From Kineococcus vitellinus (GTDB taxonomy: Bacteria; Actinomycetota; Actinomycetes; Actinomycetales; Kineococcaceae), in contig NZ_JAAALL010000004.1 of the NCBI RefSeq assembly GCF_009906315.1, positions 1 through 42,953 on the forward strand: a stretch of DNA of 42,953 bases, in the 5' to 3' direction. This document shows positions 4,570-36,874 of this stretch, in pieces; position 1 is the first letter of the stretch, and the number at the start of each line of letters is the position of its first letter. The position numbers were made by a program, and so were the translations under genes. A model generated the notes under the pieces. That model searched no databases. It was given only the letters and a program-made list of their open reading frames with translations, and was not told where the DNA came from.

Positions 4570-4585
4570 GCCGTCCCCTCCCTCA

Positions 4586-5735: not shown

Positions 5736-8700
5736 GTGGACTGGGCAACACCGACGGCAGACTTGGCTGATCATGTCAGAGAGCAGTCCAGGCGGTGCTT
5801 GTCGGCATACCGGGAGGACGCCCATCGCGTCGAAGAGGATGCCGCCATCGAGGTCCAGGCCGCCGAAGGCGGATACGGCCGCAAGCAGATCCACGAGCTC
5901 ATTCAAAACGCAGCAGACGCGCTGATGGGCCTCGGCGGCGAAATCGAGGTTCATCTCGCTGACCGCTGTCTCTACGTCGCCAATGCTGGACGCCCCTTCA
6001 ACGCTGAAGGTGTCGATGCTTTGATGGCCTCACACCTCTCACGGAAGCGCGGCCAGGAGATCGGTCGGTTCGGCTTGGGTTTCAAATCGGTAACTGCGGT
6101 CACGGACCGACCGGAGATCTTTAGCCGGACGGTGTGCTTCGGGTTCGACCGTCAGCGGGCGGCGGCACGCATCAGGGAAGTGGTTCCAGCGGCCCCGAAG
6201 TACCCGGTTCTTCGTCTGGCTGAACCCATCGATCCCGACCTCGCCGCGAGCGAAGATCCTGTGTTGGCCGACTTGATGGGTTGGGCGACCACGATCGTCC
6301 GCCTGCCGTTGAAGGTGGGCGCCGAAGTTCATCTCCGTGAGGACTTCGACCGGTTCCCGAGTAGGTTCGTGCTGTTCGCGCCACACGTGTCACAACTGTT
6401 CATGCGTGATTCGACCCGCGGCCTCGAGCGCATGATCAATGTTGCGCAGCGACACGGTAAAACGCTCGACTTGGACGACGGCGGTACCCAGACGTCTTGG
6501 GAGGTAGTCTCCGTCGATCACCGCCCGAGCCCTGCTGCCCTTGATGACGCCGGCGAGCTCGCGAAGCGGGACCGGATCACCGTGCATTGGGCGATCCCCA
6601 CCACCGACCGAGGAGCATTGGGGGAGCTGTGGGCCTACTTCCCCACAGGAGCGCAGACGACGCTGTCGGGATTGCTCAATGCGCCGTGGAAGTTGAGCGA
6701 AGACCGGCTGAGCCTCATTCGCGGTCGGTTCAATGAGGAGGTACTCACCGAAGTCGTCCCAGGACTGCTCGCTGCGTCCTTGGGACGACTGCAGAAGGCG
6801 CACGACCCTGCGGCCTACTTGGACGTTCTTCCGTCCAGGGGGCGGGAGTCGCGCAGCTGGGCCGACGACATCGTCAACGAGCCGGTCTTCACCCACCTTC
6901 GCGCCGTCCCTTCTCTGCCTGACCTGAACGGGCAGCTGCGCCGCCCCAGCGAGCTTCGGCTCAGTCCACGAGACGTCAAGGCGGAGTGGTTGGCGGAGTG
7001 GCGAGCGGCGGCTCCTCACGCTCACGAGTGGGTTCACGAGGGTGTGAACCGGACGGGGGAACGACGCCACAAGGCAGAGCGTCTAACGGGCGAAGCCTCC
7101 ATCGCCAAGTTCTCGGACTGGCTCGAGGCACTCGTCGCTGTGCCGAGCGTCGACGCCTCCGCACACGCCGTCCGCCTCCTAGCGCGGATCGTACGCGAAG
7201 AACCCAAGTTCACTCCCGATGGACGACTGGCCAAGATCCTCATGCTGGAAGACGGACGCATGGTGCCGCCCGTTCCCGGTCGTGTCTTCGTCAGGAACTC
7301 TCCGAGCGATTCCGGTTACGCGTTCATCGACCCCCGGCTGGCGGCTGACGAATCAGTCACCGCCGCGCTCAAACAACTGGGAATCGAGGTCCTCGACCCG
7401 GCGGGTTCCCTGCGGAACGCGCTGCTGCACGCGGTTGCCAACCCCCGTGTCGAATGGGGGCACATCTGGCCCTTGGCGCGCGCCGTCGAGCTCGACTTGG
7501 CCGCGCAGATCTTCCGTGAGGTCCTGCCGCACCCCATTGAGGCGGCTGTCCGGGTTCGCTCGGCGGCGGAGTCGTGGCGGACGGTCGCGACGTCCCTCTT
7601 GGGCGGGGAGGTCATCCCCACCACCGGAAAGCGCGATCGCGCCCTGCTCGTGGACCCTGCTTACCATGCGCAGGACATCGAGTTGCTGACTCGCCTGGGC
7701 GCCGTCAGTCAGCCGGTCGTCCGCAGTAGTTCGCCTATTGAGAGTTGGGTGACTCTCTATCAGGACACCGTCGCCGATCAGTTCGTCGCGGAGGCGAAGG
7801 GTTCTAAACCTTCACGCGAGAAGATCCAGGTCCGCGGATCCATGCCACCGTGGCCGCTCGAAGTCCTTCCCGCCCTCAGCGACGAGGGACGTGTTCGAAT
7901 GACGGAGCTGGTGCTCATGGCGGACAGCGGCGCATCATGGGTCGCCAAGCACGCCACCAACAACAGCTACGGACAGCTGAAGGTCATGAGCCCCGCGTCG
8001 TGGTGGTTGCGCAAGCACGGGCGACTCCAGACCAAGGTCGGTCCATGGGCAGTGAGTGGGTGCCTCTGCCCGGCCGACGACGTGAATCCCGACGTTCTCC
8101 CGGTGCCGGATGTCAGTGAAGCCATGGCGAAACGGCTTCGTCTGGCCAAACGGCCCGCAAACCTGACCTCTGCAACATGGGCAGCGTTGGTCGCGACGGC
8201 TGAGAAGTGGTCGGACGATCGAAGGCGTTCCTCCCTGTACTCCTGGGCCGTCCACTTCCTAGACGCCCCGCAGCTCATCGTCGCTGCAGCCGGCGGTCAA
8301 GGGGCGCTGCTCCCCCCTGGAGACGTCGCCGTGGCACTTGACGAGGAGACCTACAGAGCTCTGCAAGAGCAACACATTCCCGTGATCCTCGCTGATGAGG
8401 AAGCCGACGAGGAGCAGCTTCGTGAACGGTGGGGACTGGCCGAGGGGCGGCGCCTCCTACAGCGCGAGCTCGTGGTCGAAGCCAGCGGAGAGCCCAACAG
8501 ACTGGCAGACGTGTACCCGGGGCTTCGCCTGTATCTCGCTCCGGAGCTCGCCAATGTGGATCTTCAGCGGTGTACCGCCATCAACCTGATCACTCCGACC
8601 CCCCGCGGTCAAAAGAGTCAACGAGTGCCGGGTGTCATGCACGAGGGACGTGTAGCCATCACGGCGACCGACGACGTCGAGGCGCTGACCCAGATCTCGA

Positions 8701-10343
8701 ACGCCCTCTCTCTCGGTCTCGATGCCGTGCACATCCGCACGATCCTCGCCAAGCAGGAGGCCCAGCGACAGCAGCAGCTCCGGAGAGAGATCCGAGCGGC
8801 GAAGAGCGACGACGAGCGGCTCGCGCTGGCCGTGGGAGAGGATGCGCTACGGCGCTCCATCCCTGGAAGTGCTCTGCGAAGTGTCGAGGAGTCGAAAGGC
8901 CGAGAGGCGACCCCGGCGGAGCTCGCCGCGATGGCCAGAGCAGTCCATGGTGCGGATGTCCTCCAGTACTTCAAGGCGACGCTCGACGCCAAGGACTTGA
9001 ATCCACCCGGCAAGTGGGCTGGACTCTCGCCTGCTCGGCGCTTCGTCTCGGACCTCGGTTTCCCGGCCGAGTACGCCGGAACCCCCGCTGATCGGCGGCC
9101 CGCCGTCTTCGAGGTCGAGGGGCCGTCGGTCATCGGTGAGCTGCACGACTACCAGCGCATCGTGGCGGCCGGGATCAAGCGGCTTCTCGGAGGTGAGGGT
9201 CCCGCACGCGGGATGGTCTCCCTCCCGACCGGAGCCGGCAAGACGCGTGTGGCTGTCCAAGCCTTCATCGAAGAGGTGGCCGAAGGACGACTTCAGGGGC
9301 CGCTCCTGTGGATTGCGCAGAGCGATGAGCTGTGCGAACAGGCGGTCCAGACGTGGGCTTACGTCTGGCGCGCTGTCGGCCCCAGTTCAAGGCTCACGCT
9401 GAACCGATTCTGGTCGGACAACGACGTTGTAGAGGACCCGTCGGCGTTCCAGGTCGTAGTCGCCACCGACGCGAAAGTCCTCCAAGCGGTCAAGAAGAAT
9501 GAGCACGAGTGGCTGGCCGAGGCGCAAGTCGTGGTCGTCGATGAGGCGCACACATCCATCAGCCCTACCTACACGCAGATCCTCGAATGGGCTGGGCGCG
9601 GCCGCTCGCGCGCGATGCGTCGACCGCTCATCGGTCTGACCGCGACACCCTTCCGCAACGTCAACGAACTCGAGACGCAGCGGCTCATCAATCGCTACGA
9701 CGGCAACAGGCTGGACGAGGGGGCCTTTCAGTCTCCTGAGCAGGCGTATTCTGAACTGCAGCGGCGCGGCATGCTGGCCTCGGTCAAGCAGCGTGAGCTC
9801 GCCGGCGTCGATGTGGCCATGTCGCAGAGCGAGATGGCCAGCATCGACCAGTTCCTCCGACTTCCTGCTGAGGTGGAGGAACGGCTCGGCGAGGACCTGG
9901 AGCGCAACCGTCGGATCGTCGACGACATCGTCGCGTTGCCGAAGGATTGGCCGGTCTTGCTCTTCGCGTCATCCATCGAGAACGCTCGTGCACTGGCCGC
10001 GCTGTTGACACTCGAGGGGGTGCGCTCGGTGGCCATCTCCGCAGAGACGGATACCGCCGTGCGGCGGCGGAGCGTCGCTGGGTTTCAGAGTGGTGACATC
10101 CGAGTCATCACCAATTACAACGTCCTCGCTCAGGGATTCGACGCCCCCGCGGTGCGGGCGGTCTACGTGACGCGGCCGACCTTCAGCACCAATCTCTACC
10201 AGCAGATGATCGGCCGAGGGCTCCGCGGCCCGAAGAACGGGGGCTCGGACGAGGTTCTCATCGTCAATGTCCGGGACAACCTGCAGCAGTACGGCCAAAA
10301 GCTGGCCTTCTACGACTTCGAGTACCTCTGGAGCCGCAAGTGA
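5736..10343 (+). CDS. Sacsin/Hsp90-type ATPase fused to SF2 DEAH helicase
   Basis: The start is GTG 5736, chosen for the AGGACGAGG just upstream; ATG 5715 in the same frame has no ribosome site. The product has 1535 residues. The N-terminus is a GHKL ATPase: the N-box ELIQNAADAL (about 53-62), VANAGRPFN, and IGRFGLGFKSV (about 108-118) form the nucleotide pocket, in the style of sacsin repeats. Residues about 300-1100 match nothing I recognise. The C-terminus is a complete SF2 helicase: LHDYQ near 1136, PTGAGKT near 1164, DEAH near 1269, LTATPF near 1301 and QMIGRGLRG near 1489. It is the first gene of the left operon and overlaps the SF1 helicase gene by 4 bases (GTGA). It probably couples ATP-driven conformational change to DNA translocation in defence; its exact role is unknown. 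Confidence 0.85.
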   Translation: MDWATPTADLADHVREQSRRCLSAYREDAHRVEEDAAIEVQAAEGGYGRKQIHELIQNAADALMGLGGEIEVHLADRCLYVANAGRPFNAEGVDALMASHLSRKRGQEIGRFGLGFKSVTAVTDRPEIFSRTVCFGFDRQRAAARIREVVPAAPKYPVLRLAEPIDPDLAASEDPVLADLMGWATTIVRLPLKVGAEVHLREDFDRFPSRFVLFAPHVSQLFMRDSTRGLERMINVAQRHGKTLDLDDGGTQTSWEVVSVDHRPSPAALDDAGELAKRDRITVHWAIPTTDRGALGELWAYFPTGAQTTLSGLLNAPWKLSEDRLSLIRGRFNEEVLTEVVPGLLAASLGRLQKAHDPAAYLDVLPSRGRESRSWADDIVNEPVFTHLRAVPSLPDLNGQLRRPSELRLSPRDVKAEWLAEWRAAAPHAHEWVHEGVNRTGERRHKAERLTGEASIAKFSDWLEALVAVPSVDASAHAVRLLARIVREEPKFTPDGRLAKILMLEDGRMVPPVPGRVFVRNSPSDSGYAFIDPRLAADESVTAALKQLGIEVLDPAGSLRNALLHAVANPRVEWGHIWPLARAVELDLAAQIFREVLPHPIEAAVRVRSAAESWRTVATSLLGGEVIPTTGKRDRALLVDPAYHAQDIELLTRLGAVSQPVVRSSSPIESWVTLYQDTVADQFVAEAKGSKPSREKIQVRGSMPPWPLEVLPALSDEGRVRMTELVLMADSGASWVAKHATNNSYGQLKVMSPASWWLRKHGRLQTKVGPWAVSGCLCPADDVNPDVLPVPDVSEAMAKRLRLAKRPANLTSATWAALVATAEKWSDDRRRSSLYSWAVHFLDAPQLIVAAAGGQGALLPPGDVAVALDEETYRALQEQHIPVILADEEADEEQLRERWGLAEGRRLLQRELVVEASGEPNRLADVYPGLRLYLAPELANVDLQRCTAINLITPTPRGQKSQRVPGVMHEGRVAITATDDVEALTQISNALSLGLDAVHIRTILAKQEAQRQQQLRREIRAAKSDDERLALAVGEDALRRSIPGSALRSVEESKGREATPAELAAMARAVHGADVLQYFKATLDAKDLNPPGKWAGLSPARRFVSDLGFPAEYAGTPADRRPAVFEVEGPSVIGELHDYQRIVAAGIKRLLGGEGPARGMVSLPTGAGKTRVAVQAFIEEVAEGRLQGPLLWIAQSDELCEQAVQTWAYVWRAVGPSSRLTLNRFWSDNDVVEDPSAFQVVVATDAKVLQAVKKNEHEWLAEAQVVVVDEAHTSISPTYTQILEWAGRGRSRAMRRPLIGLTATPFRNVNELETQRLINRYDGNRLDEGAFQSPEQAYSELQRRGMLASVKQRELAGVDVAMSQSEMASIDQFLRLPAEVEERLGEDLERNRRIVDDIVALPKDWPVLLFASSIENARALAALLTLEGVRSVAISAETDTAVRRRSVAGFQSGDIRVITNYNVLAQGFDAPAVRAVYVTRPTFSTNLYQQMIGRGLRGPKNGGSDEVLIVNVRDNLQQYGQKLAFYDFEYLWSRK

Positions 10344-12097
10344 GTGACGTCACCTTCGACGCCGAACAGGCGGAAGCAGTCGAGATCGAGCCCGTCGTGC
10401 GGCAGATCGTCATCGCCGGCCCCGGCGCAGGCAAGACTGAGGTCGTCGCCGGCCTCCTGCAGCACCTCGTGGACGAGGAGGACGTCGAGCCGACTGACGA
10501 GCTCCTGGTGATCAGCTTCTCGCGTGCTGCGGTCAACGCCGTGCGCCAGCGGACTCGACGAGATGGAAGCCGTGCCCGACTGACGACGGTTCGGACGCTG
10601 GACTCCTTGGCGTCGGCCATCTTGACTGCGGGCGATTCAGGCGATCTTCGACGGGCGAGCTTCGACGAGCGGGTCCGTCAGGCCACGGGCGCGCTGGTTC
10701 ACGGTGACTGGGAGGGCCTCGAAGGACTCAGGCATGTCGTCGTCGATGAGGTGCAGGACGTCGTCGGCGTCCGTGCCGACTTCCTCACCGAGTTGCTCCG
10801 GGGGCTTCCTGAGGGGTGCGGGTTCACGCTCTTGGGGGACCCCCAGCAGGCGATCTACGACTTCCAGCTCCGTGACCTGGTGGATGGGACCACCTCCGAG
10901 GAGTTCGTCCGTCGAGCCGAGGGCCTTGGAGCGCGCCGCGTGGAGCTGCGCGGCCAATATCGTGCCCGCACCTCCGAAACGCTCGAGGCCACGGGCCTCG
11001 GACATCGGATGCGAGCTGCCGAGGACGCCGAGAGAAGTCTGATCGTCAACGACTTCGTTGATCGTTTGCCCGGCATCGACTCGCCGGAAGAGTTGGCGCT
11101 GCTCCTCCCGCGCTGGGAGGGACGCACCGTTGTACTGTGCGCGACCAACGGCGAGGCCCTCATGGTCTCCAGGGCCCTTCGTGCCGAGGGAGTCGCCGTC
11201 GTGCAGCAACGGTCCGCCCAGGAGCAGTCGGTGGACCGGTGGGTCGCCGATGCACTGGGGCGACGACCTCTCCCCTCGATCGCTAAGTCGGACCTGGTCG
11301 AAGCCCTCGAAGGAGGAACCGTCTATCCGGATTCGGCGTGGCGAGCCCTGCGCGCCGCGGTAGGGGGGCGTGGACGCGAGGTCGACGTCATGGCCGTCGC
11401 CCGCCGCTTGGCCATGGGAGTCGCCCCGATCGACCTGCAGGCGACGTCGACCGCGCGGGTCGTCGTCTCGACGGTCCACCGGGCCAAGGGGCTCGAGTTC
11501 GAGAACGCCGTTCTCGTCAACCCGCAGTCGTGGAGCGCCGAGGAGGGTGTGGGTACCGGCGAAGCGGCCCGTACGGCGTTCGTCGCCGTGAGCCGCGGCC
11601 GCGAGCGCTTGGCTCTGCTGACGATGCCCCGTGAATGGGGGCTCAAGCTCGACAAGCGATACGGAGTTCGCCGGTGGTACCTCGGCCATGGCGGGCGAAG
11701 GCGGGGCTTCGAGGTGGTCCCGTCGGACATCGCGAGCGCGGTTCCCGGAGGCAGGGACACCGGGGCTGTCCACGAGCTCTTGTCGAAAGGGCTCGCACCC
11801 GGCAGTCGTCTCTCCATGAGGCTCGACCGCAGAGTCAGCACTCTGGAGTGGCCGGTGTTCGAAATCCTCCACGGCGACCTCGTGGTCGGTACCACCAACG
11901 ACGCGTTCGCGGAAGCATTTTCCCGTTGCGTCGGTAAGGCCGCGACACGCGACTGGCCGGAATTGGGAGAGATCACCGTCGAGAATGTGGTCACCATCGC
12001 CGGCGATCCCTACACGGGCGGGAACGGCTCGGTCGGACGATGGGGCTTGTGGCTCGGCCTGCAGGCGGGCGGACTGGTGGATCTGTCGTGGACATGA
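10340..12097 (+). CDS. UvrD/Rep-like SF1 helicase
   Basis: The GTG at 10340 overlaps the preceding stop (GTGA). The 585-residue protein carries the SF1A motifs in order: GPGAGKT near residue 27, SFSRAAVNAVRQR, VVVDEVQD near 136, GDPQQAIYDFQ near 166, GQYRARTSETL, STVHRAKGLEF near 377 and FVAVSRGRERL near 413. The domain inserts of UvrD are short. The last 150 residues show no known domain and end in a Gly/Trp-rich stretch (GRWGLWLGLQAGG). It should translocate on single-stranded DNA in the 3'-5' direction and help process DNA handled by the neighbouring helicases. GajB of the Gabija system is also UvrD-like, but no GajA nuclease is beside it. Confidence 0.88.
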   Translation: MSDVTFDAEQAEAVEIEPVVRQIVIAGPGAGKTEVVAGLLQHLVDEEDVEPTDELLVISFSRAAVNAVRQRTRRDGSRARLTTVRTLDSLASAILTAGDSGDLRRASFDERVRQATGALVHGDWEGLEGLRHVVVDEVQDVVGVRADFLTELLRGLPEGCGFTLLGDPQQAIYDFQLRDLVDGTTSEEFVRRAEGLGARRVELRGQYRARTSETLEATGLGHRMRAAEDAERSLIVNDFVDRLPGIDSPEELALLLPRWEGRTVVLCATNGEALMVSRALRAEGVAVVQQRSAQEQSVDRWVADALGRRPLPSIAKSDLVEALEGGTVYPDSAWRALRAAVGGRGREVDVMAVARRLAMGVAPIDLQATSTARVVVSTVHRAKGLEFENAVLVNPQSWSAEEGVGTGEAARTAFVAVSRGRERLALLTMPREWGLKLDKRYGVRRWYLGHGGRRRGFEVVPSDIASAVPGGRDTGAVHELLSKGLAPGSRLSMRLDRRVSTLEWPVFEILHGDLVVGTTNDAFAEAFSRCVGKAATRDWPELGEITVENVVTIAGDPYTGGNGSVGRWGLWLGLQAGGLVDLSWT

Positions 12098-12108
12098 AGG
12101 GAGCCGAA

Positions 12109-15100
12109 ATGACCGAGCTCGACCCGTGGTACGAAGCGCGAGCCCAGATGGTCGCTGCGCTCGAAGCCGACCTCCTCGGGGACGCGTCCCAGACGACCCT
12201 GAACGAGGCACCCCTCGATCGCTATCTGATGGGAATCCTCCGGCCGCAACCGGTCGCCGGCGCGTCCGAGACGGTGCCCGAGGACGAGGACGAACGCGCG
12301 GAAGACGGCGTTTCAGGAGCTGACGCCGCCTTCGACCCGGCGGTCGCCCTGACACGGGTCCGCTATCCGTCATCCATGGGGTTGACGTTCGCCGTCGATG
12401 CTGCGGTGACTCCGCATGTCGAGGTCGCCGTGCGGGCCGCCCGTTTCGAGGCCTACGAGGGGGCACGAGAGGCGGCTGCCGACGGGCCCCGTGTCCGCGG
12501 CGGATCTGGTCGCCGAGACGAAGTCTGGACCCGTTCCGAGGTGGCCCCTCCACCCATCACGGTCTCCGTAGCGCCCGCGCGGAGCGCCCCTGAGGAGGTG
12601 GCTCCGGGGTTGCAACTGCACGTCGTGACGCGACCAGCGGTGCGTGGAGTCGTCACCATCACCCTGGTCCTCGTGAACACCCAGTTCTCGGACAAGGGAC
12701 GTGATGACGGCAAGTGCTGGTTCCAGCCCAGCATCTCGGTGAGTCTGCGATCTGGGGGGTTGGTCGACCGCCCGAGTCCTCGCCCCGCCGGCATCGACGA
12801 CGAGGACTTGGACTCTTATCAGCTCTTGTTCCGCGACGTTCGCAACGTCGCGGTCGGGCACGGTTGCGCCGTCGAGTGGAACGACGGGCCAGAAGTGAAG
12901 GCAGTCAACACTACGTTCCTTCCTCGCCACGAACTCCCGCTGTCCGAACCGGGAGGTGCCTCCACCGCGGACCTCCGCATGACGCGACTGGCCGAGACCG
13001 GCGACGTCGCCCCGCTTCGAGAGCTCGTCGCCGAGTACCGACGCTGGATCGAACTCAAGGCGCGCTCTGCGGTGGAGCTCGAACTCCCTGAGCTGAGGGC
13101 GCAGGCAGACAAGCACCTGGGTGCGGCTCGTCACGCCGCCGATCGCATGGACGCCGGAATCGCGCGACTAGAACATGACGACTTGGCGCGAAGCGCGTTC
13201 CGCGCCATGAACGCCGCCATGCAGGCGCAGCGTGCACGGCAGGAGATGATCCGGGCAGGGCGTTCGGCACCCGATGAGAAGGAACATTCCTGGCGCGCCT
13301 TTCAGATCGCCTTCATCCTGCTGAACCTCGAAGGACTCACCGATCCGCAGTCTGCTGACCGCGGCACGGCGGACCTCCTGTGGTTCCCCACCGGTGGCGG
13401 CAAGACGGAGGCTTACCTCGGCCTCATCGCGTACACCATCCTCCTGCGGCGACTTCGGGACCCGAGGGACGCCGGCGTCTCCGTCCTCATGCGTTACACG
13501 CTGCGGCTACTCACCATTCAGCAGTTCGAGCGCGCCGCCGGCCTCATCTGCGCACTAGAGGTGGAGCGACGGGAACTCGTTCCGGCGTCGGAGCCGATCA
13601 GTCTGGGTCTGTGGGTGGGGCAGGGTGCGACTCCCAACAAGGTCGAGCAGGCGTACACCGCCCTCCGTGGCAAGAAGAAGTCCGACGATGGAGACGACGA
13701 CGGAAGCCCTCTGCAGCTTCTGAGGTGTCCCTGGTGCGGAGCTGATCTCACCGCAGCCGACTACAAGATCGACCGGGCCAAGACGCGGCTGACGATCCAC
13801 TGCTCGAGCAGCTCGTGCACGTTCGCCGACGGGCTCCCCGTGCACGTCGTCGACGAAGACGTCTACCGTGAGCGTCCCTCGCTGGTGATCGGTACGGTCG
13901 ACAAGTTCGCGATGCTCGCCTGGAACGCCGAGGCAGGCAAGCTCTTCTCGACCGACGGGAAGCACTCGCCTCCCGACCTCATCGTCCAGGACGAGCTCCA
14001 CCTCATCAGCGGCCCCCTCGGAACGCTCGTCGGTCTCTACGAGGCCGCCATCGATGCAGCGTGCTCCCGCACGGGCGTGATCCCCAAGGTGGTGGCGTCC
14101 ACCGCGACGATCCGCCGGGCTCGGCGGCAGGTGCGGGCGGTCTTCGACCGTGAGGCGGAACAGTTCCCCCCATCGGGGCTCGACGCCAAGGACTCGTTCT
14201 TCGCGGTGGAGGCGTCGCCTGCCGAGAAGGGGACGCGTCAGTACGTCGGCGTCCTCGCTCCAGGTGTGAGTCAAGCGACGTTGATCGTTCGCAGCTACGC
14301 CGCGTTGTTGCAGGCCGGGCAGCGACTGCAGGTCCCGGACGAGGTGCGAGACGCCTACTGGACGCTCCTGGGCTACTTCAATTCCCTTCGGGTCCTCGGT
14401 GGGGCCTACATGCAGGTGATCGATGACGTCCCTGGGCGGCTCGAAGTCATCGCCAAGCGAGAAGGAGAGCAGCCTCGTCCTCTCCCTGGTGGCCCTCGGG
14501 AGATGACGTCTCGCAAGAAGTCGACAGAGATCCCCGTCGAGCTCGCGTTGCTGGGGACGCCCTACCCGAAGGCTCCTTCCGTCGTTCTCGCGACGAACAT
14601 GATCTCGGTGGGTGTCGACGTGGACAGGTTGGGCCTGATGGCCGTCGCCGGCCAGCCGCAGACGACAGCGGAGTACATCCAGGCCACGAGTCGCGTCGGT
14701 CGCCGGCATCCCGGGCTGGTGGTGGTGCTCTACAACAGCGCACGCACACGAGACCTTTCGCATTACGAGAGCTTCGCGACCTACCACCGCAGCCTCTACC
14801 GGCAGGTCGAGGCCACCGGGGCGACACCCTTCGCTGAGCGCGCGCGAGACCGTGGCCTCCACGGCGTGCTCGTCGCCTTCGCGCGGTTGCTCGTCGACGG
14901 CGCGACGGGTGACACCCGCGCCGGGACGATCGAGGAATGGGGCGACCAGCTCGAGCAGACGTCGAAGCGCCTCCTCGACCGGGCAGCTCGAGTCGACGAG
15001 GCACAGGTGCCGGGGCTCCGCGATCAGATCGACGAGCTGATCACCGCCTGGCGTGGCGAGGTGGGACTGCGGAAGTACGCGGGGTGGTTCGAGCGCTCCA

Positions 15101-19171: not shown

Positions 19172-19225
19172 GCCGGCATGGTAAACGATGCCAGCCTCCT
19201 TGAGGCGCCGTCGTACCGTGTCGCT

Positions 19226-19705: not shown

Positions 19706-19729
19706 TCGACCACTGTGGCCGTTCCCCTA

Positions 19730-20793: not shown

Positions 20794-20821
20794 TAGGGCC
20801 AAAAGTGGTCACTCACCGCTG

Positions 20822-28320: not shown

Positions 28321-28620
28321 ACATGACCGAGCTAACTCCTTCTTTTCAGGTGGAGGCGATCCAAAGATCGCTGCTCAGCTACCTGACTACCACATTCGCC
28401 CTCGTTGATGAGGCTTCGCGTACCTCCTTGAGTGAGTTTCTCAATGATCCGGTGTCGGGTCTCTTCAAGGGGGCTTTCGTTCGCCTTCGTCTTCCCTTTC
28501 GGCCAGCGAGTACAGGTTGGCAGCGCTCACTCGACTGGTATGGAGGGCTTCCACCTTACGGCCACCAGGCCGCAGCCTTCGAGCGTCTTTCGACCTCCCG
28601 CGCCGCCTTGGGAGCAAGCC
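26650..28620. other. Low-GC patch covering the methyltransferase C-terminus and the helicase N-terminus
   Basis: By hand count 27661-27720 has 31 of 60 G+C, against 43 of 60 at 25381-25440 in the same gene. The change begins near 26650 and ends near 28620 inside the next gene. The reading frames are uninterrupted. TTA codons, rare in this kind of genome, cluster here. The patch matches the expected target-recognition half of the methylase plus the first 100 residues of the adjacent helicase, as if the two pieces had been exchanged together. Confidence 0.7.
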
Positions 28621-31600
28621 GTCCGCAACCGACGCTCGTCACGACTGGTACGGGCTCTGGCAAGACGGAGTCGTTTCTCTTCCCCATCCTCGACCACGTC
28701 CTGCGTGCCAAACGCGCCGGGGTGACCGGGATGAAGGCGATCATCCTCTACCCGATGAACGCGTTGGCGAACGATCAGGCCAAGCGCCTCACTTCAATCC
28801 TCACCGGGGACGACACCCTCTCGGGCGTGACCGCGGCGATCTACACGGGGCAGAACGATCCGCTGCCGCGAACAAGAGTTTCGGCGAAGGGCCTCATCAC
28901 CGACCGCAAGGTCATGCGCAGCGATCCACCCGACGTCCTCCTGACCAACTACAAGATGCTCGACCAGCTGCTCCTGCGCGCGGACGATGCTCCGCTGTGG
29001 CAAAAGAGCGCGATGAGCCTGCAGTACCTCGTCCTCGACGAGTTCCACACCTACGACGGGGCTCAGGGCACCGACGTCTCCATGCTGTTGCGGCGTCTGG
29101 GGACCGCGCTCAAGAGCTACTGGCAGCCAGGAGACCTCAATGTTTCCGGAGAGGACCGTCGCCGGCCGCTGGGCCAGATCACGCCCGTCGCCACGTCTGC
29201 GACGCTCGGGGACGGCGGTGATCCCGCGCGGATGCTCCAGTTCGCCGAGACGGTCTTCGGCGAACCTTTCGGCGCGGACGCCGTCGTCACCGAGAGCCGC
29301 GTGAGCATCGACGAGTGGATCGGTGACGCCGCTGACGTCGTGGAGAGTTGGGAGTTGGAGGAGGTCGACGTCGACCGCTCGACCATTCAGCTCGTCAACC
29401 GTGCTGTGGAGGCCCTCGGGGACAACCCTGAAGGGTCGGCCGTCGCCGAGGCGGTCGCTTCCCAGCTGTGGAGACCGTCCACAGAGGATGCGCCGACGAT
29501 CGGCGCCGAGGATCGGCTCTTGACCCTGCTGCGGGGGCATCAGGTCACTCGATGGCTGCTGAGCCGTGCGGTGGACGCGATCAGCGTGCGGGACCTGGCC
29601 ACCGATCTCCTCGGCGACCACGGAGCCGCGGCCTCGACCGAGGAGCAGGATGCCGCGGAAGCCTTCGTCACCGCGCTGCTCGCCGCGTTCAGTCACGTCC
29701 GTGCGATCCACGGCCGGATCGCGCCGTCCGTTGACCTGCACTTGTGGGTGCGCGAGCTCACCCGCATCGACCGCGCGGTCTCCGACCGTCCCGAATACAT
29801 CTGGGCTGACGACGGGCCTCTGATGGCCGTCCAATCCGACGACGTCACCGACACTCGATCCTCGACCTACCTCCCAGCTTTGTACTGCAGGCACTGTGGT
29901 CGATCCGGGTGGGGACTCGTGCTGGCGCCGACCGGCAGCGACCTGCACGGCGACGACTCGGCGATCCGAGCACAACGCACGGCGCGGAACGACAGGTTCC
30001 GTCCAGCCATCCACGCGCCGGCCGAGGGTGAGATGCCGGAACTCGCGGACGGCCACGACGTCGTGGGCCTCCTGTGGCTGTCGACGGACGAGCGCCGACT
30101 GCTCGCCCGACCCTCGGTGACCGAGGAGCAGCTGCGCACCGGAGCGGTCGTCCCCGTCCTCACCCACGTCGGTGACGACGCCGCGGAACTGTCCCTCGAC
30201 GACACCTGTCCCTCCTGCCTGCAGAAGGACGGCATCCGGTTCCTCGGCTCGGCCATCGCGACGATGCTGTCGGTCACCATCTCGACGTTGTTCGGCGACC
30301 CCACGCTGGACCCTGAGGAGAAGAAGGCGCTCGTCTTCACCGACAGCGTGCAGGACGCCGCACACCGCGCCGGGTTCGTCGAGGCACGCTCCCACAGCCT
30401 CACGTTCCGCTCGGTGATCCGAGAAGCCGTGGGGGACGCCCCGTCCTCCCTCGACGAGCTGGTCGAGGAGATGCTGCGGCGGGCTGGCGACGACCGCCAC
30501 CGGCGCTACCGTCTCGTGCCGCCGTCCTTGACGGGGTTGGAGGAGTTCACGCCCTTCTGGGAGGAGGCGTCCCTACGACGTGTCCCGCCCAAGGTCCGTG
30601 AGCGAGTTCGTCGACGGCTGCTCCTCGACGTGTCCTTGGAGTTCGGTCTGCAGTCGCGCACCGGGCGGACACTCGAGCGCACGGGCAGCGTCACCGCGGA
30701 GGTCGACGCCTCCGAGGGGATCCTGCTCCGCGCTGCCGACGACGTCCTGGATGCAGCCGGTGGGACCGGGACGCTGGGCTCCGCCCCCGCTCGCGCGCAG
30801 CGGATCGCCTGGGTGCGCGGCGTCCTGGAGCGGATGCGGGAGCGGGGCGCCGTCCACCACCTCTGGTTCGTCAAGTACCAGCAGGACGACGGGAACCGCT
30901 ACTCGATCTGGGGCGGTCGTCCTCGCTCGGACGGCATGCCGGCGTTCCCCGCCGGCCGCGCTGCGCCGGCCTTCCCGCGCGTCGGCGGCGCGAAGCTCGA
31001 CAAGAACGTCGACCTCGACCCGGTCACCTCGCCTCAGAGTTGGTACGCACGATGGGCGGGGCGGAATCTCGGAGTCGCGCCCGGGGACGGCGCGCGCTTC
31101 GCCAAGATGCTCTTCGAGCGGCTCGCACACTTGGGTCTCGTCGACGTCGTCACGAGCAAGAGTGCGGCCCAGGTCTACGAGCTCAAGACGTCGTCGATCC
31201 TCGTCGCACCCGTGGAGCTCGACGATCTCACTGGAGGCCTGCACCGTCTGGTGTGCTCTGTCTGCCGTTCCAGCTTCCCCGGGAGCCTGATGGTCACCGA
31301 GCAACTGAGCGGAGCTCCCTGCCTCGTGGCCCGTTGTGGGGGGACTCTCGGGACAGATGCGGGTGATGACAACTTCTACCGTCGTCTCTACGAATCCACG
31401 GACATCCGCCGCGTCGTGGCGCGCGAGCACACCAGCATGCTCGACGACGCCGTCCGCCTGGGCTACGAGGAGGCCTTCAAGGGGGCGGGCGAAGATCCGC
31501 AGGCCCCCAACGTCCTCGTGGCCACGCCGACGCTCGAGATGGGCATCGACATCGGCGACCTGTCCACCGTCATGCTCTCCTCGCTCCCACGCTCGGTCGC

Positions 31601-34600
31601 TTCCTACCTGCAGCGCGTCGGTCGTGCGGGCCGCCTGACCGGGAACTCGTTGAACCTCGCCTTCGTGACAGGGCGAGGCGACCAGCTGCCGCGCCTGGGG
31701 GACCCCCTGTCGGTCATCAACGGCGCGGTGGTGCCGCCGGCGACCTACCTGGACGCCGAAGAGATCCTCCGCCGTCAGTTCATCGCACACTTGGCCGACC
31801 ACCTCGCGCGGGACGTCAACGCACCGCACCCCAAGTCCGCATCCGGTGCGATCGGGTCCGTCGACGAGGGCTCCTTCCTCCGTGCGCTGCTGAACCTCGT
31901 CGAGGTCGACCCGAAGCAGTGCGTCGACGCCTTCCTCGCCGGCTTCCCCTCGCTGTCGGACCTCACCCGTCGATCGCTCCTCGAATGGGCTTCTCCGCAG
32001 GCGGGAGTGCCGGACAGCAGTGGCCTCGCGCGTCGGGTGGTCTCCGCCTCGCAGAGTTGGAACCACACCGTCGAGACCCTCAACCACCGCCGCAAGGAGA
32101 TCCAACTCTCACTGCCGGCCTTGCAGCAGGCCGTCGCCAACAAGGCGACGGCGACGGACGCCGACAGGCGAGCGCACCGCACGGCCCAAGCGGCGCTCCG
32201 CCTCGTCCAGGCACAGCTGTCCGACCTGCGAGCCGGCTACTGGATCGGTGTCCTGGAGGAGCACGGCCTCCTGCCGAACTACACGCTCCTCGACGACGGC
32301 GTCACGTTGGACGTCACGCTGAGCTGGACGGACCCTGACACCGGGGACTTCCGCAACGACCCGTTCAGCTACCGACGAGGGGGCACCCAGGCGTTGCGGG
32401 ACTTCGCCCCCGGCGCGACCTTCTACGCGAACGGTCACCGGATCGCGATCGACGCCCTGGATCTGGGCCACGACGGTGAATCCGTGCGGCAGTGGCTCTT
32501 CTGCCCCGCGTGCGGCTATGCGGCCGGCCCCGACCCCGCACCGGTGGCCGCCTGCCCACGGTGCGGAAGCACCGGCGTGGCCGACACCAAGCAGCGCCTC
32601 GACGTGGTCGAACTCGAGCATGTCTACTCCGCCATGCGCCGCGACGACGCGCTGATCGGAGACGACCGCGACGAGCGCATGCGTGAGCAGTTCAGCGTCG
32701 TCACTGCGGCCGACGTCGACCCCGCGAAGGTCGTGCGCCAGTGGTTCGTCGAGGGGTACACCTTCGGCGCCAAGTACCTGCGAGACCAGACCATCCGGTG
32801 GATCAACGTGGGGCGCAGCGCCGCTCACGGGATGACTCGCCCGCTGGCGGGGGCCGAGCTGCCGGTCCCCCTCTTCCGCGTCTGCGAGGCCTGCGGGCAG
32901 CTCGACAAGGATCCCCGGGTGACCCGCCCGGACGAGCACCGACCGTGGTGCATCCACCGCACCGCCACCGCCGAACACACTCGAGGAGTCGCCCTGTCCC
33001 GCACCCTGCGGACGGAGGGACTCGTCCTGCGCCTGCCCGCGAGCGTGACCTTGGGGGACGCCTTCGCGGTCCCGAGCCTGTCAGCGGCACTGCTCCTCGG
33101 CCTGCGACGACGCATGGGCGGGTCGCCGGATCACCTGCAGATCGTGGAGACCGTCGACCCGACCTTCGGCAACGGTACGGACAACGCGTCCGCACTGCTG
33201 CTGCACGACATCGTTCCAGGGGGAACCGGGTACCTGGCCGAGCTCGCCGATCCCAGAGCCGTGTGGCGGCTCCTCCGCGACGCCTGGGAGACCGTCCGCG
33301 ACTGCCCGTGTCGGGAGGAGGATCGGTTGTCGTGTCACCGGTGCCTGCTGCCCTTCGCGGCGCCGCACCAGGTGCGCTGGGTCGCGCGGGCCTCGGCGGA
33401 ACGCCACCTGCGCGACATCCTGGCTGCAGGTGGCGATCACGATCCGGCCGACGAGCCGACCTGGTCGTGGACCGAGGAGGAGCCCGACCAGGTCGACCCC
33501 GAGTCCACTCTGGAGCAGCGGTTCCGCAAGATCTTCCTGGAACGCCTCGCCGCCGTCGGTGCGACCGTCGACGAACAGCCGACGGTCTCCGGGAACCGAC
33601 TCCTCATCACGATGCGGGGTGGCCGGAAGTGGAGGCTGGAGCCGCAGCAGATCGTGGCCGGCTCCAAGCCCGACTTCATACTGCGCTGCAGTCAGGCGGG
33701 GATCCCGGAGGTGGCCGTCTTCACGGACGGATGGCGGTGGCACGCGAGTCCTCAGACCAACCGCATCGCCGACGACGCGGTCAAGCGGGAGAACCTGCGT
33801 CTCAGCAACCGTGTCGTCCTCGGCGTGTCGTGGCAGGACCTCGACGACGCCGAGAACGGAAAGGTCCAAGCGCCCGATTGGTGGGCGACCGCGCAGCGCG
33901 ACGAGCTCATGGCGAGCTCTGGAGGGCAACTCACGCCGAGCCTTCTCGACCTCGTGTCCGGGGGACCCGTCGACTTCCTCATGTCCTGGATCCAGGCACC
34001 GGACCCGGAGGGACTGCAGCGACTCGCCCACTGGCTGCCCTGGTTCCTCATCGGCGACTCGGTCGTGAGCCCCATCTCCGGGTCACCGGTCGCCGCCGCC
34101 GCCACCACGCTCGACGGGGATGCCGTCGAGGTCGGGGACAACCCGACGTGGACCTGGAGCCGGGGCCCGATGACCTTCGCCGCGACCATCGTCGACCCCG
34201 CCACCGCCACGACCGAGGTCGCGGTCGTCCTCGACGACCGAGAGGCGGCAGTGGAACGTCCGGACCATCGGGACGCCTGGCGAGAGTGGTTGCGACTGAG
34301 CAACCTCCTCAACCTGCGGACTGCCCCGACGACCATCTCGTGTCGCACTGAAGTGGACCTGGGTGCAACGCCCGCCGCTGCGTCCGAACCCACGCCCGCC
34401 ACCGGCTCGATGCCGGCCGAGTGGCAGGAACTCTACGAGCTCGGCACCGAGCTCGAGCGGCCGCTGATCAGAGAGCTCGCAGCCGCTGACATCAGCCTGC
34501 CGGAACAGGGCCTGGAGTCGGTGGGTGGCATCGCCCTCCCACTGGCGTGGCCGGCTCAGAGGGTCGTCGTAGACGTCTCGTTCAGCACCGACGACCGCAT

Positions 34601-34682
34601 CGAGCTCGAGACCGCGGGCTGGCACGTCGTGTCACCGGTGATCGATAAGGTGCGCGAAGCACTGACCGTGGGGAAGGACTGA
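28323..34682 (+). CDS. Giant DEAD/DEAH helicase with DUF1998 region and nuclease-like tail
   Basis: ATG 28323 is preferred because AGGGAAG lies 7 bases upstream; GTG 28317, overlapping the previous stop, is the alternative. The protein has 2119 residues. The helicase core comprises TGTGSGKTESF (about 111), LYPMNALANDQ, LVLDEFHTYDG (DEFH, about 239), SATLGDGG near 291, then after a long insert TPTLEMGIDIGDLS near 1067 and QRVGRAGRL near 1096. Zinc-binding pairs include YCRHCG near 520, CPSC near 628 and CPACGY...CPRCGS (1393-1417). The DUF1998/MZB-like end has LLHDIVPGGTGYLAE near 1625 and CPCREEDRLSCHRCLLPF near 1660. A tail with KPDFIL (1782) and VAVFTDGWRWH (1796) resembles a degenerate endonuclease fold. 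Druantia DruE and MrfA are family relatives. In effect it joins DrmA- and DrmB-type functions in one chain. Confidence 0.85.
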   Translation: MTELTPSFQVEAIQRSLLSYLTTTFALVDEASRTSLSEFLNDPVSGLFKGAFVRLRLPFRPASTGWQRSLDWYGGLPPYGHQAAAFERLSTSRAALGASRPQPTLVTTGTGSGKTESFLFPILDHVLRAKRAGVTGMKAIILYPMNALANDQAKRLTSILTGDDTLSGVTAAIYTGQNDPLPRTRVSAKGLITDRKVMRSDPPDVLLTNYKMLDQLLLRADDAPLWQKSAMSLQYLVLDEFHTYDGAQGTDVSMLLRRLGTALKSYWQPGDLNVSGEDRRRPLGQITPVATSATLGDGGDPARMLQFAETVFGEPFGADAVVTESRVSIDEWIGDAADVVESWELEEVDVDRSTIQLVNRAVEALGDNPEGSAVAEAVASQLWRPSTEDAPTIGAEDRLLTLLRGHQVTRWLLSRAVDAISVRDLATDLLGDHGAAASTEEQDAAEAFVTALLAAFSHVRAIHGRIAPSVDLHLWVRELTRIDRAVSDRPEYIWADDGPLMAVQSDDVTDTRSSTYLPALYCRHCGRSGWGLVLAPTGSDLHGDDSAIRAQRTARNDRFRPAIHAPAEGEMPELADGHDVVGLLWLSTDERRLLARPSVTEEQLRTGAVVPVLTHVGDDAAELSLDDTCPSCLQKDGIRFLGSAIATMLSVTISTLFGDPTLDPEEKKALVFTDSVQDAAHRAGFVEARSHSLTFRSVIREAVGDAPSSLDELVEEMLRRAGDDRHRRYRLVPPSLTGLEEFTPFWEEASLRRVPPKVRERVRRRLLLDVSLEFGLQSRTGRTLERTGSVTAEVDASEGILLRAADDVLDAAGGTGTLGSAPARAQRIAWVRGVLERMRERGAVHHLWFVKYQQDDGNRYSIWGGRPRSDGMPAFPAGRAAPAFPRVGGAKLDKNVDLDPVTSPQSWYARWAGRNLGVAPGDGARFAKMLFERLAHLGLVDVVTSKSAAQVYELKTSSILVAPVELDDLTGGLHRLVCSVCRSSFPGSLMVTEQLSGAPCLVARCGGTLGTDAGDDNFYRRLYESTDIRRVVAREHTSMLDDAVRLGYEEAFKGAGEDPQAPNVLVATPTLEMGIDIGDLSTVMLSSLPRSVASYLQRVGRAGRLTGNSLNLAFVTGRGDQLPRLGDPLSVINGAVVPPATYLDAEEILRRQFIAHLADHLARDVNAPHPKSASGAIGSVDEGSFLRALLNLVEVDPKQCVDAFLAGFPSLSDLTRRSLLEWASPQAGVPDSSGLARRVVSASQSWNHTVETLNHRRKEIQLSLPALQQAVANKATATDADRRAHRTAQAALRLVQAQLSDLRAGYWIGVLEEHGLLPNYTLLDDGVTLDVTLSWTDPDTGDFRNDPFSYRRGGTQALRDFAPGATFYANGHRIAIDALDLGHDGESVRQWLFCPACGYAAGPDPAPVAACPRCGSTGVADTKQRLDVVELEHVYSAMRRDDALIGDDRDERMREQFSVVTAADVDPAKVVRQWFVEGYTFGAKYLRDQTIRWINVGRSAAHGMTRPLAGAELPVPLFRVCEACGQLDKDPRVTRPDEHRPWCIHRTATAEHTRGVALSRTLRTEGLVLRLPASVTLGDAFAVPSLSAALLLGLRRRMGGSPDHLQIVETVDPTFGNGTDNASALLLHDIVPGGTGYLAELADPRAVWRLLRDAWETVRDCPCREEDRLSCHRCLLPFAAPHQVRWVARASAERHLRDILAAGGDHDPADEPTWSWTEEEPDQVDPESTLEQRFRKIFLERLAAVGATVDEQPTVSGNRLLITMRGGRKWRLEPQQIVAGSKPDFILRCSQAGIPEVAVFTDGWRWHASPQTNRIADDAVKRENLRLSNRVVLGVSWQDLDDAENGKVQAPDWWATAQRDELMASSGGQLTPSLLDLVSGGPVDFLMSWIQAPDPEGLQRLAHWLPWFLIGDSVVSPISGSPVAAAATTLDGDAVEVGDNPTWTWSRGPMTFAATIVDPATATTEVAVVLDDREAAVERPDHRDAWREWLRLSNLLNLRTAPTTISCRTEVDLGATPAAASEPTPATGSMPAEWQELYELGTELERPLIRELAAADISLPEQGLESVGGIALPLAWPAQRVVVDVSFSTDDRIELETAGWHVVSPVIDKVREALTVGKD

Positions 34683-34684
34683 CC

Positions 34685-36874
34685 GTGCCGCAGATCGTGT
34701 GGGGCCCGCCTCAGCGAGGCGAAGTGGACGCTTCCGTCAAGAAGCTCGTCCTCACCTTCCTCGAGAAGCTGAACCGGGACGACACCACGCCGGGTCTCCA
34801 CATCGAGCCCATCAACGGAACAGTCGACGACCGGATCCGCACGGGACGTGTCAACGACTTCTGGCGGGCAGTCCTCGTCAAGCTCCAGGGTCAGGGCGAG
34901 ACAGCCCACTACGTCTACCTGGGCACCTTTCCTCACGACGACGCGATCAAGTTCGCCAAGCGTGCGCAGTTGACGGTCAATCCGGTGAACGGCATCGCCG
35001 AATTGATCATGGCGACCGAGCCCGGCGATGCCGCGGTGATCGCTCCTGCCCGGGTCGCTGAGGTCGTGAAACCGCTTTTGCCTTCTCGGGGCGTCACCCG
35101 CGAAGTGCTCGTCGACGAGGTCGGCATCGCGCCCGACATCGCAGACCTGGCGGTGGCTGCCACCACGGAGGACGAGATCATCCGCATCGCCGAATCCGCG
35201 GTGGAGTGGCAAGGACTCCTGCTCATCGATCTTGCGGGCGGAACGCCGCTGGAAGCAGCCCGGGCATCTCTCGGTCTCGCCGAGTCGCCGGCCGAAGCGG
35301 TGGATGCGCCGGCGATCTCCGACGAGGAGGTCATCTCGGCGCTGCGCCATCCCGCCGCGCAGATGCAGTTCGCCTTCATCGAGGATGATGCAGAACTGCG
35401 CCGAGCCATCGAGGACTCCTTCGCCGCATGGCGCATCTTCCTCCACCCGGAGCAGCGGAAGTACGCGACGACGCGCTACAACGGACCGTTCCGTCTCTCC
35501 GGAGGTGCAGGCACCGGGAAGACGGTGGTGCTGCTCCACCGCGCTCGACACCTGGCGAGGCAGAACCCGCACGCGCGCATCCTCCTCACCACCTACACGC
35601 GAACCCTGGCGGAGGCTCTACGTGCCGATCTCCGGCGACTCGATCCCACCCTGAAGATCGCCGCAGGGCCCGGCGAGTCGGGTGTCTACATCTCCGGCGT
35701 CGACGCCGCCGTCAGCTCCGTGTTGAAGGCCGCGAAGAATCGAGCGGATGCGATCGAAGCCGTTCTCGGCGCTCGATCGCCACAGACGTCAGGACGGACG
35801 AAGGAGTCGGCGTGGAGCGACGCCGCACAGGGCGTCGAGCTACCCCCGGAACTGCTGTCGAGGACCTTCCTGGCGTCGGAGTACGCGATGGTGGTCCTGC
35901 CTGCACGGGCGACGTCCCGCGACGAGTACTTGACTGTCCGCCGGCCGGGGCGAGGTGTCTCCCTCGACCGCAAGAAGCGCGCCAGTGTCTGGAGCATCGT
36001 CGCGTCCTACCGTGCTCAAGCGAGCATCGAGGGCAGCGTCGACTTCGCCGAGGCGGCGTCGATCGCCGCCGCGTCGCTGGAAGCCACCGGCCCGCTGTTC
36101 GACCACGTGCTCGTGGACGAGGGCCAGGACCTCACCCCGAGTCATTGGCAGTTCCTGCGGGCGTCGGCGGGTGAAGGGTCGGACGACCTGTTCATCGCGG
36201 AGGACTCCCACCAGCGCATCTACGGACAGCGTGTCGTCCTCGGCCGTTACAACATCAAGATCGTCGGGCGTTCGCAGAGGCTGACCCTCAACTACCGAAC
36301 CACCGCACAGAACCTCGGGTACGCCGTCGCTGTACTGGAAGGCGGAGAGTTCCACGACCTCGAGGACGCGGGCGAGGACGCGCGTGGATACCGATCGGCG
36401 CGGACCGGCCCTCGGCCTCGAGTCATTCACGTGGACAGCCTGAGCGAGGAGTTCGACCAGGCGGCTGACGTCGTGCGGCGGTGGAGCGATGAGACTGAGG
36501 CGCAGGAGACCATCGGACTCCTGGTGCGAGACCAGCAGACCGCTCGCAGGCTGTCCATCGGCCTCGACGAGCGGGGCGTCCCGGTGCGGATCGTCGAGGG
36601 GGGTGTGTCGAGCAGCGCCCAACCCCTCGTCATGACGATGCACCGGGCGAAGGGGATGGAGTTCTCACGGGTCCTGATCTTCGGTGTGGACGAGGGGTCG
36701 GTTCCCGCGGAGTACGCCGTGCAAGGGCTGCCGGACGCCGACTGTGAGGACGCGTTGTTGCGGGAGAGGTCGCTGCTCTACGTGGCGGCGACGCGTGCTC
36801 GAGACGAGTTGGTGCTCCTGACGCGGCAGCCGAGCCCGATCCTGCCGGGCATCGCTCGTAAGGTACCCACCTGA
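34685..36874 (+). CDS. UvrD-like helicase with ParE/RelE-like N-terminal domain
   Basis: GTG 34685 has GGGGAAGGA 8 bases upstream and lies 2 bases after the previous stop; the product has 729 residues. Residues 1-105 resemble a RelE/ParE toxin fold: a helical FLEKL start, PGLHIEPINGTVDDRIRTGR, VNDFWRAVLVKL, then YVYLGTFPHDDAIKFAKR. An uncharacterised linker follows to about 250. The SF1 helicase has GGAGTGKT near 275, VLVDEGQDLTPSHWQF near 474, IAEDSHQRIYG near 503, LNYRTT, HRAKGMEF near 652 and LYVAATRARDEL near 697. It is the last gene of the right-hand operon and probably unwinds or remodels DNA with the giant helicase. Whether the ParE-like domain is toxic or a binding module cannot be told. 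Confidence 0.85.
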   Translation: MPQIVWGPPQRGEVDASVKKLVLTFLEKLNRDDTTPGLHIEPINGTVDDRIRTGRVNDFWRAVLVKLQGQGETAHYVYLGTFPHDDAIKFAKRAQLTVNPVNGIAELIMATEPGDAAVIAPARVAEVVKPLLPSRGVTREVLVDEVGIAPDIADLAVAATTEDEIIRIAESAVEWQGLLLIDLAGGTPLEAARASLGLAESPAEAVDAPAISDEEVISALRHPAAQMQFAFIEDDAELRRAIEDSFAAWRIFLHPEQRKYATTRYNGPFRLSGGAGTGKTVVLLHRARHLARQNPHARILLTTYTRTLAEALRADLRRLDPTLKIAAGPGESGVYISGVDAAVSSVLKAAKNRADAIEAVLGARSPQTSGRTKESAWSDAAQGVELPPELLSRTFLASEYAMVVLPARATSRDEYLTVRRPGRGVSLDRKKRASVWSIVASYRAQASIEGSVDFAEAASIAAASLEATGPLFDHVLVDEGQDLTPSHWQFLRASAGEGSDDLFIAEDSHQRIYGQRVVLGRYNIKIVGRSQRLTLNYRTTAQNLGYAVAVLEGGEFHDLEDAGEDARGYRSARTGPRPRVIHVDSLSEEFDQAADVVRRWSDETEAQETIGLLVRDQQTARRLSIGLDERGVPVRIVEGGVSSSAQPLVMTMHRAKGMEFSRVLIFGVDEGSVPAEYAVQGLPDADCEDALLRERSLLYVAATRARDELVLLTRQPSPILPGIARKVPT

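Follow-up and report, generated by a model that had tools for sequence, protein, structure and literature searches.

DISARM reportedly falls into two classes, class 1 and class 2, set out by Ofir et al. in 2018. In the DISARM system of Serratia, the DrmAB pair prefers single-stranded DNA (ssDNA) with a 5′ overhang, its ATPase activity is lowered by 5-methylcytosine (5mC), and DrmC appears to be non-essential (PMC9142583). ARMADA type II has been described as four genes in a strict order, encoding SNF2-like, PglX-like, YprA/DUF1998 and UvrD-like proteins; in Escherichia coli all four are needed, protection is achieved without killing the cell, and the system works alone (Bell et al. 2025, PMC12458937). 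DruE, a related helicase-nuclease, acts on replication intermediates that contain ssDNA (PMC13192584). A broader theme of GHKL ATPases occurring with SF2 helicases, C5 methylases and Vsr was recognised by Iyer et al. 2008, where DUF1998 is not mentioned (PMC2292703). Here, we describe a defence array on one whole contig of 42,953 bases (the window) from the draft genome of the actinobacterium Kineococcus vitellinus. We conclude, with a probability of about 0.78, that the array comprises two neighbouring systems, each complete and predicted to act against phages, a variant of DISARM on the left (5715–19705) and ARMADA type II on the right (20822–36874).

Results

The left half contains a DISARM core

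The left half (5715–18081) is a true DISARM core. DrmA exceeds the NCBI equivalog cut-off for the short form of the protein and DrmB exceeds its curated cut-off (Table 1), with NCBIfam matches far beyond chance (E = 3e-297 and 5e-140, respectively). Alignments with the solved structure of Serratia DrmAB (PMC9142583) extend over the greater part of both proteins (DrmA with 7s9v_A, E 1.8e-164; DrmB with 7s9v_B, E 2.6e-85). The match to DrmA starts at Serratia residue 142, and the N-terminal part of the Serratia protein before this residue therefore has no counterpart in the window DrmA. The alignment covers the Serratia trigger loop (residues 176–232), which faces an acidic segment of low complexity in the window DrmA. 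The DrmA motifs GGGKT, DELH and QATSRVGR are intact. DrmB is adjoined by C5a, which is matched by DrmMII profiles, with DruM and type II methyltransferase profiles scoring higher.

DrmA and DrmB are preceded by a GHKL-SF2 fusion protein and a UvrD-like helicase, and we refer to these four genes as the cassette. GHKL-SF2 matches the NCBIfam sacsin N-terminal ATP-binding profile (75.6 bits, cut-off 50), its ResIII, DEAD and Helicase_C matches exceed the Pfam cut-offs, and its RadD match of 98 bits lies below the RadD cut-off. The predicted model (mean predicted local distance difference test score, pLDDT, 88.7) resembles the ATPases of Hsp90, sacsin SR1 and MORC/SMCHD1, and the motifs ELIQNAAD (N-box), GRFGLGFKS, PTGAGKT, DEAH and QMIGRGLR have key residues that are invariant among homologues. 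The N-terminal ~500 residues also match the TmtA profiles of Tiamat, a single-gene system (E 4e-44), but the similarity is confined to residues 15–518 of GHKL-SF2 and to positions 7–508 of the 1538 in the profile. The model of the left UvrD-like protein (mean pLDDT 90.7) has UvrD, Rep and PcrA as its top PDB matches, with AdnAB and GajB lower down, and no nuclease domain was recognised in this protein. A search for a hidden nuclease in the C-terminus of the UvrD-like protein and in the central part of the GHKL protein gave only helicases and Hsp90/sacsin/MORC ATPases as top PDB matches, which falls short of a full exclusion.

A hidden Markov model (HMM) of DrmC that recovered all five class 1 control genes, four of them with a visible HxKx4D motif and the fifth found by HMM, was negative in the window, in the 80 cassette loci described below and in the other cassette and ARMADA regions. 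A hidden DrmC or other phospholipase-D (PLD) nuclease was rejected; the PLD matches of the source genome lie on other contigs, in frames of 543–757 aa. DrmE, the class 2 component, did not appear in the PADLOC matches listed for proteins of the window. The left half therefore resembles DISARM of class 1 and class 2 in its DrmA, DrmB and adjacent DNA methyltransferase, but it lacks DrmC, DrmD, DrmMI and DrmE and instead has GHKL-SF2 and UvrD, with Vsr nearby. It also resembles the MORC/paraMORC restriction-modification (R-M) operons, in which a GHKL ATPase, an SF2 helicase, C5 methylases and Vsr share one neighbourhood (PMC2292703), except that here a single protein unites the GHKL and SF2 parts, and a DrmAB core and UvrD accompany it. 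The cassette is apparently a DISARM subtype of undescribed architecture. Literature searches returned no description of this four-gene combination, and "undescribed" is provisional because literature coverage is incomplete.

The cassette is conserved and accompanied by C5 methylases and Vsr

An alignment of GHKL-SF2 scanned against 84,980 species genomes yielded at least 453 relatives, and the best 80 loci were analysed, a choice that biases the cassette counts towards sequences close to the query. All but one of the 80 are actinobacterial, and GHKL-SF2, UvrD, DrmA and DrmB keep their order and strand in 69 of them. The DrmA proteins of UvrD-containing cassettes group in a single supported clade (75 rows) that is separate from class 1 DISARM and from a further clade of loci without this UvrD (NERD-helicase type or none); the tree is a fast one, with uncertainty flagged at some basal joins. 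None of the plasmid and phage records covers 80% of the GHKL-SF2 protein.

Among the 65 cassette loci with full flanks, a C5 methylase lies within ~10 kb in 57 and Vsr in 46, against one of nine ARMADA-only loci in each case (p = 7e-6 for C5, p = 1e-3 for Vsr). Because both genes are so frequent near the cassette and DrmC is never found there, the C5b/Vsr pair of the window is most likely part of the left system, in which Vsr is a candidate nuclease.

Several further genes were seen around the cassette. A gene encoding a helix-turn-helix and a PDC-M33A-like region, a PDC-M33C/DUF6339-like gene and a gene of no known family adjoin ~30–43 cassette loci (L115–L181, mainly Streptomyces-type, ~4.5–9.2 kb), a block that may be an extended form of the cassette system, and a Z1 (MzaC-like) protein is encoded in 11. 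A NaeI-family restriction endonuclease lies beside a C5 methylase and Vsr near the cassette at seven loci (L106, L102, L123, L174, L175, L177 and L136), which suggests frequent capture of ordinary type II R-M modules next to it. Two GHKL-SF2 copies flank UvrD-DrmA-DrmB in Kineosporia-type genomes (L073 of G121, 148–16550; L071/L072 of G107). At locus L200 (G166, 8347–17724), a type III R-M Res/Mod pair stands directly upstream of DrmA/DrmB. Locus L206 (G014, from the window's genus, ~2406–16680) is a different DrmA/DrmB locus that looks like a mixture of MZA and DISARM: it encodes a PDC-S37/Hhe-like protein of 1510 aa, a protein similar to MzaA, a DrmA that has diverged strongly, DrmB, Vsr and a C5 methylase.

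ARMADA type II occupies the right half

The right half (20822–36874) is ARMADA type II. ArmA (SNF2/BrxHII-like), ArmB (PglX-like), ArmC (YprA-like) and ArmD (UvrD/GajB-like) follow one another on one strand in the published order. The whole four-gene order occurs in 11 other loci of the window's taxonomic order at 30–63% identity, and an E. coli plasmid locus shows an identical arrangement of these four gene types. The motifs required in E. coli ARMADA are present at similar positions, namely GLGKT and DESH in ArmA, GSGKT and DEFH in ArmC, GTGKT in ArmD and, in ArmB, the NPPW reported for the E. coli protein (PMC12458937). Protein sizes and the DUF1998 region agree as well, a Vsr-like motif towards the C-terminus of ArmC may correspond to the Vsr-type nuclease of the published system, and nothing fundamental differs, apart from the neighbour being a DISARM variant instead of Druantia III or Zorya II. 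The Vsr-like motif (PDF...FTDGWRWH, ~33669–33743) is a short protein match to Vsr (E 8e-4), with no Pfam match at this place. A 43-nt direct repeat (77%) links the Vsr gene (19413–19455) and this motif (33709–33751). The N-terminus of ArmD is RelE-like in published ARMADA II (PMC12458937); the corresponding extension in the window gave no significant match to a solved chain, and a RelE identity was not confirmed. By homology with the E. coli system, the window ARMADA would be expected to need all four genes and to defend non-abortively.

A solitary ArmD-like UvrD gene was observed 23–159 bp after DrmB in genomes where no ArmC was found (L112 (L224), L117 and L122); it is possibly a shared accessory or an ARMADA remnant.

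The two systems are separable but recurrently adjacent

Among 198 genomes of the window's taxonomic order, 22 carry ArmA, eight carry GHKL-SF2 and six carry both. ARMADA is thus present in 6/8 cassette genomes against 16/190 others (Fisher p = 2e-5; 1.6e-4 without the source genome), and 16 of the 22 ARMADA genomes have no cassette. Where both occur, they are adjacent on one contig in the source genome, G024 and G099, and on different contigs in the other three. ArmC is present in 17 and absent in 60 of the 77 genomes behind the 80 cassette loci, a tally that was a loose first look with limited candidates scored per genome, so that the absences are upper bounds. A phylum-wide sample of 246 genomes, with two candidates scored per genome, contained both systems only in the source genome, and each was too rare (2–3/246) for the sample to be informative.

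The cassette and ARMADA are adjacent in at least 12 distinct genomes, the window included, in three arrangements. ARMADA lies downstream in the same direction in Prescottella, two Mycolicibacterium species, a Mycolicibacterium metagenome-assembled genome (MAG) and a Frankiales MAG; the halves are convergent in three Micrococcaceae, one of which (L172) is apparently G024 again; and ARMADA lies upstream of the cassette in Rhodococcoides. In a Tsukamurella record, UvrD, DrmA, DrmB, ArmA, ArmB, ArmC and ArmD form one run. The gap between DrmB and ArmA is 25 bp in Mycolicibacterium setense, 35 bp in Tsukamurella and 126 bp in Prescottella. The linked state requires at least five changes on the ArmC tree and five on the DrmA tree, the latter count including one locus (L164) in which only ArmD is confirmed, and behind two sister lineages of Mycolicibacterium cassettes, one and the same slot is occupied by ARMADA systems that belong to different lineages. 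These results indicate a recurrent association rather than one inherited fusion.

In the Tsukamurella record (NZ_LR134452.1, L219), a second cassette-type UvrD follows ArmD, with an IS21 element beyond. The record is labelled a plasmid but is probably chromosomal, because smc, rnc, mutM, coaD and rsmD adjoin the array.

Gene layout and boundaries of the array

The genes of the array are listed in Table 1. An earlier, sequence-only account of this DNA (the preliminary description) had named DrmA, DrmB, the GHKL/SF2 fusion, two UvrD-like helicases, a DUF1998 helicase, two C5 methylases and Vsr; all are present, and every catalytic motif searched for in the array genes is intact. The left operon begins at 5715 rather than at 5736 as first given. 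It lies entirely on the plus strand, and its successive genes overlap by 4, 4, 11 and 4 bp; in the right run, also on the plus strand, ArmA and ArmB share 1 bp and ArmB and ArmC overlap by 4 bp. The overlaps of 1–11 bases that were said to tie each half together thus hold up to ArmC, whereas ArmC and ArmD are 2 bp apart. DrmA most likely starts at 12094, where an ATGA overlaps the UvrD stop codon, and not at the 12040 of the open reading frame (ORF) finder; the start codons of C5b and Vsr were picked by spacing alone. The paralogous 3′ ends of C5a and C5b produce an inverted repeat (17815–18063/18101–18349). Co-transcription of the two halves is broken, because C5b lies on the minus strand and Vsr is divergent from it. 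The protein previously called Lsr2-like shows this similarity only weakly and below the cut-off. None of the other loci examined yielded a counterpart, which rules it out as a conserved regulator, and it is probably incidental.

Table 1 Genes of the defence array in the window.
Gene	Product	Coordinates	Strand	Remarks
GHKL-SF2	GHKL (Hsp90/sacsin/MORC-like) ATPase fused to RadD-like SF2 helicase	5715..10343	+	1542 aa; first gene of left operon
UvrD	UvrD/GajB-like SF1 helicase	10340..12097	+	585 aa; UvrD-helicase 73 bits
DrmA	DISARM YprA-type helicase, short form	12094..15261	+	NCBIfam DISARM_DrmAS 989.1 bits (cut-off 950)
DrmB	DUF1998/MZB partner of DrmA	15251..16972	+	NCBIfam DrmB_fam 468.1 bits (cut-off 240)
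C5a	C5-cytosine methyltransferase	16969..18081	+	PF00145 204.6 bits; PPCQG, ENV, QRR; last gene of left operon
C5b	Second C5-cytosine methyltransferase	18083..19171	-	52% identical to C5a; convergent with C5a
Vsr	Very-short-patch endonuclease	19226..19705	+	PF03852 59.7 bits; 1cw0 E 4e-11; FLDGCFWH; divergent from C5b
ORF	Protein with weak Lsr2-like C-terminal segment	19750..20793	+	Lsr2_DNA-bd 20.2 bits (cut-off 26.9)
ArmA	SNF2/BrxHII-like helicase	20822..23773	+	GLGKT, DESH; 53-63% identity to ArmA of 14 other loci
ArmB	PglX/type IIG-like adenine methyltransferase	23773..28320	+	PADLOC IIG family 1414 bits, nearly full length; NPPW at 942
ArmC	YprA-type helicase with DUF1998 and C-terminal Vsr-like motif	28317..34682	+	DEAD, Helicase_C, MZB; DruE-type profiles
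ArmD	UvrD/GajB-like helicase with N-terminal extension of ~250 aa	34685..36874	+	UvrD domains from residue 254; GTGKT, DEGQD

The G+C content of the array (5715–36874) is 0.60–0.71, against 0.73–0.77 in both flanks (2-kb windows), and the array is probably a horizontally acquired island. Directly after ArmD, near the rise in G+C, fragments of an IS4/5-family DDE transposase lie on both strands (36996–38727), a zone that is likely to be the island boundary. No convincing att-type repeats flank the array, and Rfam and tRNA scans of the window gave no matches.

Discussion

The preliminary description saw in the array a composite with parts of both DISARM classes, in which class 1 DrmD and DrmMI had joined class 2 components. 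ArmA and ArmB are distantly related to these two proteins. However, ArmA scores 337.7 bits against DISARM_DrmD, missing the cut-off of 610 by a wide margin; genuine class 1 loci of the window's taxonomic order carry DrmD and DrmMI that are only ~25–34% identical to ArmA and ArmB and are followed by DrmA, DrmB and DrmC; and ArmC and ArmD accompany ArmA and ArmB in intact loci. The supposed class 1 parts, a DrmD-like SNF2 helicase and a large adenine methylase, are therefore a matter of resemblance and not of membership, and a single mixed-class DISARM, ruled out by the cut-off and by the comparison with class 1 loci, retains next to no probability. The 2.1-kaa DUF1998 helicase and the right-hand UvrD-like helicase were rightly noticed, but belong as ArmC and ArmD to ARMADA type II, which has its own gene set (PMC12458937). 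That DrmC is absent, and that the array is not a standard DISARM locus, proved accurate.

Since cassettes mostly occur without ArmC, ARMADA mostly occurs without the cassette and an opposite-strand gene separates the halves in the window, we regard the array as two systems. Some observations weigh against this view of the locus and its left half. The halves form one operon-like run in some Mycobacteriales, which argues for one unit in that lineage; no Vsr lies within ~10 kb in 19 of the 65 full-flank cassette loci and no C5 methylase in eight, so that both may be associates and not core components; and Vsr could merely repair deaminated 5mC instead of acting as an effector. Support for one integrated super-system, in which cassette and ARMADA II would form an obligate machine driven by two YprA-type motors (DrmAB and ArmC) and guarded by a pair of methylation marks, comes from the adjacency in at least 12 genomes, the co-occurrence within the taxonomic order, the short DrmB–ArmA spacing in Mycolicibacterium, Tsukamurella and Prescottella and the filling of one downstream slot by different ARMADA lineages behind closely related Mycolicibacterium cassettes, and Druantia III is known to act in synergy both with ARMADA II and with Zorya II (PMC12458937, PMC13192584). 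Such a machine is nevertheless improbable, given the 60/77 cassette genomes without ArmC, the 16/22 ARMADA genomes without a cassette, the methylase on the opposite strand, the convergent halves of Micrococcaceae and the ability of E. coli ARMADA II to work alone. The alternative that accepts two systems and denies only their cooperation, attributing adjacency to shared integration sites or mobile carriers, has appreciable weight at somewhat less than even odds. It fits the lowered G+C content, the transposase fragments after ArmD and the restriction of both systems to the source genome in the phylum sample, whereas adjacency has arisen independently with different ARMADA lineages and shows operon-like gaps in one of the host lineages, more than a single mobile carrier would produce. 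It is unlikely, but conceivable, that the cassette with its C5 methylase and Vsr is a distinct and widespread DISARM class in which Vsr replaces DrmC and which joins ARMADA II in a cooperative super-system, with two YprA-type motors on the same phage DNA intermediates. Under our preferred reading of two neighbouring systems, their recurring proximity suggests that the two act additively or synergistically on DNA intermediates common to both, with neither half needing the other; cooperation is plausible, and part of the adjacency signal may be ordinary defence-island clustering. The preliminary description had left a choice between one large system and two fused ones, with co-occurrence as the check: the halves are often apart, which by that check makes them separate systems, yet in the taxonomic order they are commoner together than expected, and they are repeatedly adjacent; "two fused" is literal in some Mycobacteriales (25–126 bp gaps), and both "one system" and "unrelated" are less accurate than recurring neighbours.

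The C5b/Vsr pair (18083–19705) might instead be a separate Dcm/Vsr-type methylase and repair module inserted between the systems and part of neither, which we consider a possible but less favoured origin. A divergent C5/Vsr pair also lies near one ARMADA-only locus (G090), C5 and Vsr genes also occur near other GHKL R-M operons (PMC2292703), and 19 cassette loci have no Vsr nearby; the frequencies beside the cassette, set against one of nine beside ARMADA-only loci, speak for membership in the left system.

These features are compatible with the following scheme. C5a and C5b would mark host DNA as self, and DrmAB would sense unmarked phage DNA, loading on ssDNA or 5′ overhangs and being repressed by methylated DNA, as shown for Serratia DISARM. 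From its fold, GHKL-SF2 may clamp and pump DNA, the GHKL ATPase serving as an ATP-driven clamp, and the fused SF2 motor would, with UvrD, remodel and unwind the engaged DNA. Cutting would then fall to Vsr or to a recruited host nuclease in place of DrmC; the part given to Vsr is the least certain of the scheme, in view of its possible role in repair. ARMADA could mount a second attack, with ArmA, ArmC and ArmD as motors and the Vsr-like part of ArmC as nuclease, self being guarded by an ArmB methylation mark.

The cassette represents a testable third DISARM architecture that is common in actinobacteria, with at least 453 matching stretches in the scan. It has no nuclease of the kind normally assigned to DISARM, but a GHKL clamp-helicase and probably Vsr instead, and, as DrmC appears to be dispensable, it bears on what cuts DNA in DISARM. 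In the E. coli islands of Druantia III, Zorya II and ARMADA II, YprA-type helicase systems are likewise co-located in a recurrent and phylogenetically mixed manner (PMC12458937, PMC13192584), whereas the partner of ARMADA in the window is a DISARM variant. The array thereby extends the clustering of YprA-helicase systems to DISARM and offers a second natural pair for the study of defence synergy.

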